A stretch of DNA of 33,816 nt. It comes from Ruminiclostridium sp. (GTDB taxonomy: Bacteria > Bacillota > Clostridia > Oscillospirales > Ruminococcaceae). Below the pieces are notes generated by a model. The model was not told where the DNA came from and did no database searches. It worked only from the letters and a program-made list of their open reading frames with translations. A program made the translations under genes and the position numbers. Position 1 is the stretch's first letter; each line of letters begins with the position of its first letter. Positions 13,288 to 33,434 of this stretch are shown here, piece after piece. Location: NCBI GenBank assembly GCA_017941355.1, contig JAGAWN010000165.1:1-33816 (forward strand). The letters run 5' to 3'.

Positions 13288-13569
13288 TCATTCGCAAAAC
13301 TGTTCGAGAACAGTTTTAAGCGCGTTCGCACTCGCGTTATGGATCTTCGCAACGGGGAAGCGATGCTTCTCCGCCTTTTTGTTTACCTGATTCGCCATTT
13401 TATGGGAGCAGGTATTTGTGAACATAACCACAAGATCGGGTGAACCCAGCTTGTTTTCAAAATCCGCGGGCATCTGTGTAAACACTTTTGCCTTACATTT
13501 GTAGCTTCCGCAGATCTCCTTGTACTTCGCGGCCATTCTGTCATTGCCGCCTACAACAACTACACTCAT
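13288..13569 (-). CDS. DUF2325 domain protein
   Basis: A 93-residue protein of the DUF2325 family, with a Rossmann-like start SVVVVGGNDRM and a central VVMFTNTCSHKM segment with one conserved Cys and His. Its biochemical role is not known. The family is often seen near iron and redox genes in Clostridia (general knowledge). Here the gene is monocistronic, with AAGGAG five bases before the ATG, its own strong promoter, an operator over the transcription start and its own terminator. The same operator occurs twice at the DUF3793-flavodoxin promoter 20 kb away, which places this gene in a common regulon. Confidence 0.85.
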   Translation of the reverse strand: MSVVVVGGNDRMAAKYKEICGSYKCKAKVFTQMPADFENKLGSPDLVVMFTNTCSHKMANQVNKKAEKHRFPVAKIHNASANALKTVLEQFCE

Positions 13570-13604: not shown

Positions 13605-13620
13605 GTTAGCGTATGCTAAC
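13605..13620. promoter_or_regulatory. GTTAGC-N4-GCTAAC operator at the DUF2325 promoter
   Basis: Perfect six-base inverted arms with a four-base centre. The site begins ten bases downstream of the -10 box, so it covers the early transcribed region. It resembles DtxR/MntR-family sites in its GTTAG half-sites, but the regulator is not in the window. Confidence 0.7.
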
Positions 13621-13630
13621 CTCTATGTAT

Positions 13631-13659
13631 ATGATAACACAGTTTTTTTCTTTTGTCAA
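13631..13659 (-). promoter_or_regulatory. DUF2325 gene promoter
   Basis: Minus-strand TTGACA (13654-13659), 17-base spacer and TATCAT (13631-13636). Confidence 0.8.
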
Positions 13660-21943: not shown

Positions 21944-22049
21944 ATGTCCGACGTTTTCGCAGCGGGCAGCGGGCAGCGCCCGCAGGCATTCCGTATCGTA
22001 ATTGTCTGCTTTCGGCGAGTTATCTGCCTCGCAGCCAATTGTTTTCATT
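21944..22049. repeat. Tandem repeat copy 1 (106 bp)
   Basis: Begins ATGTCCGACGTTTTCGCAGC and matches copy 2 almost throughout. It has an extra seven bases (GCGGGCA duplicated) that make it 106 rather than 99 bases. It contains the hairpin-forming GCGGGC-AGC-GCCCGC and GCGAG/CTCGC segments. Confidence 0.9.
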
Positions 22050-22148
22050 ATGTCCGACGTTTTCGCAGCGGGCAGCGCCCGCAGGCGTTCCGTATCGTAA
22101 TTGTCTGCTTTCGGCGAGTTATCTGCCTCGCAGCCAATTGTTTTAATT
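22050..22148. repeat. Tandem repeat copy 2 (99 bp)
   Basis: Nearly identical to copy 1 apart from the seven-base indel and a few substitutions. The 99-base length is 33 codons, so frames remain open through it. Confidence 0.9.
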
Positions 22149-22170
22149 ATGTCCGACGTTTTCGCAGCGG
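22149..22170. repeat. Partial third repeat copy (22 bp)
   Basis: The first 22 bases of the unit recur exactly, then the sequence diverges. This marks the end of the tandem array. Confidence 0.85.
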
Positions 22171-32340: not shown

Positions 32341-32745
32341 TCACACAAGGGCTTTGCCGAGTTCTTTGCACTTGGCAAGGATATCGTCGGACGGTTCGAG
32401 GTTCGAGATTATACCCGCGTCATTGACAAGAACGGCGCCTGCTGCCTTTACTCTGTCCTCCCATGTTCTCATCCACTGTCCGTCGCCCCAGTCGTAAGAG
32501 CCGAAGAGTGCGATCTTCTTACCGCTTATCTTGCTCTCGATGCCGGCAAAGAAAGGCTCAAATTCGCTTTCTTCAAGCACCTCGTCGCCCATTGCGGGGC
32601 TGCCGAGAGCAAGCGCGTCGTAGCTCGCAACATCTCCCTTGAAATCGGAAACGCTGACTGCTTCAACTCCCGCGCCCTCCGCTACTGCCTTTGCCATAGC
32701 CTCTGTGTTGCCTGTGCCGCTCCAGTAAATAACTGCTGCTGCCAT
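32341..32745 (-). CDS. Flavodoxin
   Basis: Small FMN electron carrier (134 residues) that can replace ferredoxin when iron is scarce. The FMN phosphate loop is IYWSGTGNTEAMA at the N-terminus. ALGSPAMGDE and FGSYDWGDGQWM supply the isoalloxazine-side loops. ATG 32745 is chosen because AGGAGGA is five bases upstream and the FMN loop must begin near the N-terminus; the longer frame lies in the preceding gene. It starts ten bases after the DUF3793 stop, whose codon lies in this ribosome site, so the two are co-transcribed and probably coupled. Confidence 0.94.
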   Translation of the reverse strand: MAAAVIYWSGTGNTEAMAKAVAEGAGVEAVSVSDFKGDVASYDALALGSPAMGDEVLEESEFEPFFAGIESKISGKKIALFGSYDWGDGQWMRTWEDRVKAAGAVLVNDAGIISNLEPSDDILAKCKELGKALV

Positions 32746-32755
32746 AATGTTCCTC

Positions 32756-33328
32756 CTATGATATCCTGAGGGCGCGGTAGATATCGCAGCCCTCATTTAA
32801 TTTATCGCACAGAAATTTTCTGCACTTTTCGTAATTTGCGAACGTGCGCCGCGCACGTTCCTCCGAACCGTAAACTTTCCAGCACCCGCAAAGCTTGTAG
32901 TTCTCGCCGTTGTTCTCTATAAATCCTTTCACGTCCTCGGTAGGATAGTCGAGAAAAAGCCCTATCTCATGCGGGAAACCGTTTCCCTGCGACATTCTGA
33001 CGGACAGAGTTTCAAGCATGGATTCAAGCCCGCCGTTCACGTCGTAGCCCTCTGCGGACAGCATTTTTCGGGTTTCCGGTTCCGCCAGCCTTGCCGCAAG
33101 CTTTTTTTCGTTATACACGAGCATGACCCGTCTTGTGGTGCAGCGGCTGACTTCGCGTATTTTCAGTCCCTTTTCGCGGGCGCGCAGATTGAAAAGTTTC
33201 AGGTGCGCACCGAGATCAAATTCCGAACAGGACAGGGATATGAGACTTGCACACTTTATCCCCATAAGCGTCGGTGCTGTATGAAACGCCAGCTTTCTGC
33301 CGAAGCGGCGGTATTCTTCTCTTGACAT
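32756..33328 (-). CDS. DUF3793 family protein
   Basis: A 190-residue protein of the DUF3793 family, function unknown. Visible marks are HTAPTLMGIKCASLISLS near the N-terminus, RRVMLVYNEKKL in the middle, HEIGLFLDYPTEDVKGFI and CGCWKVYGSEERARRTFANY. No signal peptide or membrane helix is seen. In Clostridia this family is commonly found beside flavodoxin and ferrous-iron transport genes (general knowledge). Here it leads a two-gene operon with flavodoxin. ATG 33328 follows GGAGG at ten bases. The promoter carries two copies of the operator also found at DUF2325, consistent with control by iron or redox state. Confidence 0.88.
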   Translation of the reverse strand: MSREEYRRFGRKLAFHTAPTLMGIKCASLISLSCSEFDLGAHLKLFNLRAREKGLKIREVSRCTTRRVMLVYNEKKLAARLAEPETRKMLSAEGYDVNGGLESMLETLSVRMSQGNGFPHEIGLFLDYPTEDVKGFIENNGENYKLCGCWKVYGSEERARRTFANYEKCRKFLCDKLNEGCDIYRALRIS

Positions 33329-33360: not shown

Positions 33361-33376
33361 GTAAGCATTTGCTAAC
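33361..33376. promoter_or_regulatory. Operator 2 of the DUF3793-flavodoxin promoter
   Basis: On the minus strand GTTAGC-AAAT-GCTTAC, one mismatch from the GTTAGC-N4-GCTAAC palindrome. Its centre is 21 bp (two helical turns) from operator 1. Confidence 0.68.
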
Positions 33377-33381
33377 TTTTG

Positions 33382-33397
33382 GTTAGTCTTAGCTAAC
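33382..33397. promoter_or_regulatory. Operator 1 of the DUF3793-flavodoxin promoter
   Basis: On the minus strand GTTAGC-TAAG-ACTAAC, one mismatch from the palindrome. An extra flanking G/C pair extends it to GGTTAG...CTAACC (33381-33398). It begins eight bases downstream of the -10 box. Confidence 0.68.
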
Positions 33398-33405
33398 CTT
33401 TAAGA

Positions 33406-33434
33406 ATTATAACACATACATTCGTTTTTGTCAA
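33406..33434 (-). promoter_or_regulatory. Consensus promoter of the DUF3793-flavodoxin operon
   Basis: Perfect minus-strand TTGACA (33429-33434), 17-base spacer and perfect TATAAT (33406-33411). Such strength suits a tightly repressed gene. Confidence 0.85.

Follow-up and report, generated by a model that had tools for sequence, protein, structure and literature searches.

A conserved palindrome upstream of DUF3793, DUF2325 and iron-transport genes in Clostridia as a probable operator of a DtxR-type repressor

The palindrome RGTTAGY-N4-RCTAACY is, judging from genome sequences, most likely the operator of a DtxR-type repressor that senses Fe(II) and stands over iron-uptake and iron-sparing genes, both in the family to which the window belongs and in other Clostridia. 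The distribution, position and conservation of the sites, the genes that lie behind them and their linkage to DtxR genes were all observed directly. This reading would provide a testable iron regulon for many Clostridia, and would tie two domains of unknown function, DUF3793 and DUF2325, to iron starvation.

The window, meaning the whole stretch of DNA that was analysed, comprises 33,816 nt of Ruminiclostridium sp. contig JAGAWN010000165.1 (assembly GCA_017941355.1, hereafter the source genome). Re-scanning it returned exactly the three 6-4-6 palindromes that had been described in the sequence-only reading, at 13605-13620 (no mismatches), 33361-33376 (one mismatch) and 33382-33397 (one mismatch), all of them serving genes on the minus strand. 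The perfect copy of GTTAGC-N4-GCTAAC (13605..13620) precedes a DUF2325 gene of 93 amino acids (13288..13569, minus strand; PF10087, E 3.4e-32), and the other two precede a DUF3793 gene of 190 amino acids (32756..33328, minus strand; PF12672, E 2.3e-54), which is followed on the same strand by a flavodoxin gene of 134 amino acids (32341..32745; PF00258, E 5.8e-17). Promoters with perfect -35 boxes are predicted from the sequence ahead of both units, with TTGACA-17-TATCAT before the site at 13605 (-35 box 13654..13659, -10 box 13631..13636, minus strand) and TTGACA-17-TATAAT before the site at 33382 (-35 box 33429..33434, -10 box 33406..33411, minus strand). Each palindrome had been said to lie just downstream of a -10 box; this is true of the sites at 13605 and 33382, where the -10 box begins 16 and 14 bp ahead, respectively, but not of the site at 33361, where it is 35 bp ahead. 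Operator 1 of the DUF3793-flavodoxin unit (33382..33397; GTTAGC-TAAG-ACTAAC on the minus strand) thus lies over the expected transcription start and is aligned in relatives, and operator 2 (33361..33376; GTTAGC-AAAT-GCTTAC on the minus strand) is a downstream copy further into the leader. The window also holds a 99-bp tandem repeat of 2.1 copies that are 98% alike (21966-22170). Within the window alone, 1.1 sites are expected at up to two mismatches and three or more sites were obtained in 14 of 100 shuffles; these statistics are unconvincing by themselves, and the source genome was therefore used for the test.

The genome-wide scan that the sequence-only reading had proposed gave, across the 4.52 Mb of the source genome, 24 sites matching GTTAGC-N4-GCTAAC with at most one mismatch vs 1 for a reversed-pattern control, and 23 of the 24 are intergenic by an in-house gene caller, a home-made program rather than a published one that misplaces some gene starts. 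The wider pattern GTTAGYNNNNRCTAAC had 11 exact sites and no controls; at one mismatch it had 32 sites vs 11 controls, so that lone one-mismatch sites of this pattern may be chance matches. A near-consensus promoter with its -10 box beginning 7-16 bp before the site was found for 14 of 31 sites (the 32 of the wider pattern with that on C210 left out), compared with an intergenic background of 706 out of 68,285 strand-positions (1.0%) in the same genome, although the 7-16 bp threshold was chosen after looking and the nominal P is consequently too small. Repressor sites typically occupy such a position, over the transcription start. Matches within genes (L029, L280, L281, L030:6818) or a repeated element (L024, L030:6072) were discounted as probably fortuitous.

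The pattern is conserved well beyond this genome. Across the 40 genomes of the genus, the source genome included, there are 52 exact GTTAGCNNNNGCTAAC sites in 28 genomes and no controls. The 198 family genomes together gave 666 sites of the Y/R pattern vs 61 controls, 13 of which come from genome G070 alone, with the motif exceeding the control in 159 genomes, falling below it in 7 and equalling it in 32. At the level of the class (243 genomes), 420 sites were found vs 100 controls, the motif being ahead in 111 genomes and the control in 36.

The same is evident at DUF3793 loci specifically. Within the genus, 18 of 19 DUF3793 genes have a site no more than 350 bp upstream, the exception being L068; this count joins two scans, using core matches with at most one mismatch and including L077 and L079 by sites that were found separately. 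For the best 80 of 591 DUF3793-related loci, which come from named genomes, largely of gut and rumen origin, 62 have a site within 350 bp upstream compared with none of 80 for the control; 45 have an exact site and 39 have two or more sites, and the loci with a site include those of Eubacterium callanderi, Lactonifactor and Flavonifractor. Two of these 80 loci offer less than 350 bp of upstream DNA, and at least three overlap with the genus genomes (L195 = G039, L196 = G034, L199 = G022). The motif is absent from 18 of the 80, including all five loci from Selenomonas, Anaerovibrio and Veillonella, which means that DUF3793 is not always found behind such a site. When nine close DUF3793 leaders were aligned, the palindromes stood out against diverged DNA. 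The spacer between the half-sites is strict, as GTTAG-Nk-CTAAC was present upstream in 57 of the 80 loci with k = 6, in one with k = 10, and in none for the remaining nine values of k between 2 and 12.

The distance of 21 bp between the two palindromes upstream of DUF3793, which had been taken to suit cooperative binding two helical turns apart, is true of the window, but as a general feature it is ruled out, since the 80 loci contain 44 neighbouring pairs upstream of DUF3793 and not one of these is spaced by 20-22 bp (range 25-204 bp). A second copy 21-27 bp away does occur in six close relatives (L072, L073, L075, L077, L079 and L082), with 21 bp in L072, as in the source genome, and 25-27 bp in the other five, and L193 has its second copy 110 bp away.

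The genes behind the sites are, to a large extent, genes of iron uptake. For the relatives, 57 genus and family loci were examined, which are a part of all sites; the 81 exact sites in these loci are all intergenic according to the in-house gene caller. The 66 distinct first downstream proteins include 29 FeoA or FeoB (20 and 9, respectively, with FeoA and FeoB of one operon counted apart), 5 with the DtxR domain Fe_dep_repr_C and 3 DUF3793, in addition to 5 ABC_membrane, 3 ZIP, 2 DUF2325 and 2 DUF6796, in a tally that lists 25 of 60 families. The targets in the source genome are an FTR1 permease, an ECF-type transporter (Trep_Strep, CbiQ, ABC), FMN-binding and Shr-like proteins with ApbE on the other side, an ABC exporter pair, a MacB-like exporter, ATC-hydrolase-, BAAT- and ApbA-DUF6796-type genes, and a heavy-metal P-type ATPase behind a 95-aa protein. 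No site was seen at feoAB of the source genome, which starts 14 bp behind an ORF running off the contig start, where the upstream DNA ends.

Several further gene arrangements were observed at these sites. In the source genome, a DUF6796 protein (L018:4637-5326, C139) is encoded after an ApbA-like reductase, with a perfect site ahead of both; as two of the 66 proteins counted in relatives belong to the same family, DUF6796 may be added, on sequence grounds, to the candidate families of iron starvation. A protein of 93-95 aa is followed by the heavy-metal P-type ATPase at L279:4625-7089 (C29 of the source genome, one site) and by a large P-type ATPase look-alike, as judged by eye, at L178:3472-5907 (G034:C10, two sites). 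Two proteins behind the operator, of 162 aa in the source genome (L031:5186-5674) and 173 aa in G034 (L178:6657-7178), are 51% identical and have no Pfam match; a protein at L020:5444-5941, which is also behind sites, has no detectable relation to them. At L173:4673-13194 and L174:3799-12321, two divergent TetR-like genes are each followed by an ABC-exporter-like pair (assigned by eye), and an exact palindrome separates each TetR-like gene from its pair. Finally, a one-mismatch site at L021:5841-5856 (C37 of the source genome) precedes the -35 box in the promoter region of a gene for a 56-aa protein resembling, by eye, a two-cluster ferredoxin; this placement would suit activation in iron-replete cells, or the site may be a chance match.

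DUF3793, DUF2325 and flavodoxin appear to belong to one regulon. DUF3793 occurs in 18 of the 40 genus genomes, DUF2325 in 18 and both in 16, and in 11 of these 16 the two genes lie within 1.5 kb on one strand. Adjoining arrangements are either DUF2325-DUF3793, with a gap of 38-102 bp, or DUF3793 followed by DUF2325 after ∼450 bp, an interval with room for a flavodoxin gene. A site of its own lies upstream of 10 of the 18 DUF2325 genes of the genus (control 0 of 18). Of the eight without a site, those of G002, G011, G034 and G039 follow DUF3793 and the sites belonging to it, and the others are those of G026, G007 (start misplaced by script), G031 and G036. As the two genes are 19 kb apart in the window but neighbours elsewhere, an old operon was probably broken up in the source genome, with each part retaining the operator. 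The proposal of a single iron-tied regulon for DUF3793-flavodoxin and DUF2325 is therefore supported by the scans of the genome, the genus, the family and the DUF3793 loci. In Clostridioides difficile, flavodoxin formation rises in low iron or without Fur, and a Fur box precedes fldX, according to the accessible text of PMC6311696. A DUF2325 protein of Campylobacter is strongly induced by violet-blue light, its gene adjoining a catalase gene, as stated in the accessible part of PMC9426514. A full-text search, with most subscription journals and the regulon databases outside its range, found no paper whose title or consulted passages link DUF3793 to iron or describe the operator.

The candidate regulator in the source genome is its single PF01325 protein, of 123 aa (L061, G000:C89), in which both PF01325 (Fe_dep_repress, 40.6 bits) and PF02742 (Fe_dep_repr_C, 56.1 bits) score above cut-off. 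The primary metal site is kept, with M9, C100, E103 and H104 corresponding to the DtxR ligands M10, C102, E105 and H106 (accessible part of PMC2628430). In the recognition helix, S36, P38, S39 and R42 align with Ser37, Pro39, Thr40 and Gln43 of IdeR, and by this alignment the residue at the position contacting the changed base of the operator (R42 vs Gln43) appears to be among those that differ. C was present in 16 of 22 half-sites when the scored DtxR has Arg, compared with 10 of 28 otherwise; this apparent co-variation of residue 42 with the operator base across genomes stays suggestive, because one DtxR was scored per genome, although several genomes (G034, G011, G001, G008 and G032 among them) have more, and because the genomes are related.

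DtxR genes also lie beside exact sites in seven genomes (G232, G140, G025, G012, G027, G059 and G197), a count in which L127 and L170 are one place. In five of the seven, the divergent neighbour of the DtxR gene is feo or DUF3793-flavodoxin: DUF3793-flavodoxin in G232 and G140, with two and one exact palindromes between, respectively; feoA-feoA-feoB in G025, with two exact palindromes and one near palindrome between; and feoA in G059 and G197. In G027 the divergent neighbour is a ZIP gene, and in G012 tandem sites lie ahead of the DtxR gene itself, which has ZnuA downstream. The DtxR gene of the source genome has no site upstream, and 3 of 43 scored DtxR-like genes have one, in a set that was loosely chosen and of which at least one, in L087, is not DtxR. 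No exact site was found in 21 of the 191 family genomes with a PF01325 protein, whereas G069 and G003 (82% complete) each have one site but no detected DtxR. The seven DtxR-less genomes of the family have fewer sites, but four of the seven are ≤1.1 Mb, and this lack of sites is no proof of a link with DtxR since it is confounded by small genome size. The source genome also encodes two FUR-family (PF01475) proteins, both of which look like Zur, as one is encoded beside a cobW gene and the other beside a ZnuA gene.

The metal sensed could conceivably be manganese, or another divalent metal, in which case the same DtxR-family repressor would govern a general metal-starvation regulon, but this is unlikely. 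Although the closest solved chain to the source-genome protein is MntR, which is also its best NCBIfam match, below cut-off, M and C occupy the primary-site positions in that protein that are D and E in MntR (accessible part of PMC2628430), and the high share of FeoA and FeoB among the relatives' downstream proteins argues for iron, as do FTR1, flavodoxin and Shr-like proteins among the source-genome targets. Manganese or zinc would suit the motif beside ZIP in G027 and ZnuA in G012, as well as the three ZIP proteins among the 66, and M10 is not conserved in all site-linked relatives, the position being D in the feo-linked DtxR of G059 and G197 and N in that of G027. It is quite improbable that the site belongs to an unrelated regulator of the TetR, MarR or Rrf2 type, the DtxR genes being merely co-regulated with the iron genes. 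The half-site and spacing equal those of the one-dimer IdeR site, in the accessible text of PMC8464063, and DtxR is the top regulator family among those listed for the relatives' first genes; TetR genes do lie beside sites in L016 and L019, and by eye in L173 and L174, one adjoins DUF3793 in G001 (L064), and a MarR gene is ∼1.4 kb from two sites, yet no TetR gene was seen at feo. That the palindrome acts as a 5' hairpin in the transcript rather than as a DNA operator, for which its place at or just after the expected transcription start, the strict spacer length and a possible 6-bp stem with 4-nt loop could speak, is highly improbable because the two bases flanking the spacer, one in each half, vary nearly independently of one another (44 C-G, 25 C-A, which do not pair, 14 T-A and 11 T-G in 94 exact sites from the 80 loci, near the 41 C-G, 42 mixed and 11 T-A expected with no pairing), and some sites lie between divergent genes.

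For the preferred reading, an Fe(II)-sensing DtxR-type repressor, we infer both the identity of the binding protein and iron as its metal. One dimer would bind each palindrome of 16-18 bp in the one-dimer layout of IdeR, except that C or T takes the place of G beside the spacer. As long as iron is plentiful, the dimer would carry Fe(II) and cover the transcription start, immediately after the -10 box, thereby blocking transcription, repression being the presumed effect. When iron is low, the dimer would be released, allowing FeoAB for ferrous uptake, other metal, heme-like and FTR1-type importers and the exporter pair to be made, together with an iron-sparing set of DUF2325, DUF3793 and flavodoxin, in which the roles of the two DUF proteins are likewise presumed. 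More broadly, the chances are about even that in many Clostridia iron homeostasis depends on an SH3-less DtxR-type Fe(II) repressor with an operator code of its own (TTAGC/T for TTAGG, with Arg for Gln in the source genome), and that DUF2325 and DUF3793 are proteins of iron starvation, forming an iron-sparing module together with flavodoxin.

Known regulators of iron offer both likenesses and differences. The Clostridial set resembles the Fur regulon of C. difficile, where feo and flavodoxin (fldX) are iron-controlled (accessible text of PMC6311696); there, however, the regulator is Fur with a Fur box, whereas in the source genome the FUR-family proteins appear to be Zur-like and the site is DtxR-like. 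Classical DtxR and IdeR have an ancillary metal site and an SH3-like domain, whereas L061 has no SH3-like region in its 123 aa and lacks two of the three ancillary ligands (H79, E83 and H98), with H78 kept and T82 and A96 at the other two places. It is in this respect similar to MntR of Bacillus subtilis and TroR of Treponema, which are short and SH3-less (MntR and T. pallidum TroR).

With regard to the operator, that of IdeR/DtxR in Actinobacteria is the 19-bp TTAGGTTAGSCTAACCTAA, with a one-dimer form TTAGGNNNNCCTAA, and is found at iron genes, as given in the accessible part of PMC8464063. By the same source, the one-dimer form has the TTAG-N6-CTAA layout in common with the Clostridial site, as well as a location at iron genes, and the Clostridial TTAGC-N4-GCTAA is this one-dimer site with one base changed. 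The base concerned, next to the spacer, is G in IdeR/DtxR sites (TTAGG...CCTAA) but mostly C or T in the Clostridial site (C 66% and T 34%, for sites preselected by a C/T pattern), with G on one side in few sites (L198, L199, L242 and L270; G022 and G004). The 19-bp site consists of two overlapping palindromes, whereas the Clostridial sites are separate single palindromes at least 21 bp apart. The sequence-only reading had concluded from the difference to classical DtxR sites that a distinct repressor may be involved, which does not agree with the 6-4-6 layout being that of the one-dimer IdeR site, nor with the proximity of exact sites to a DtxR gene in seven genomes; a member of the DtxR family whose base preference has changed seems likelier. 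By this reading, the one-dimer IdeR-type site would appear to be the standard form in a further group of bacteria.
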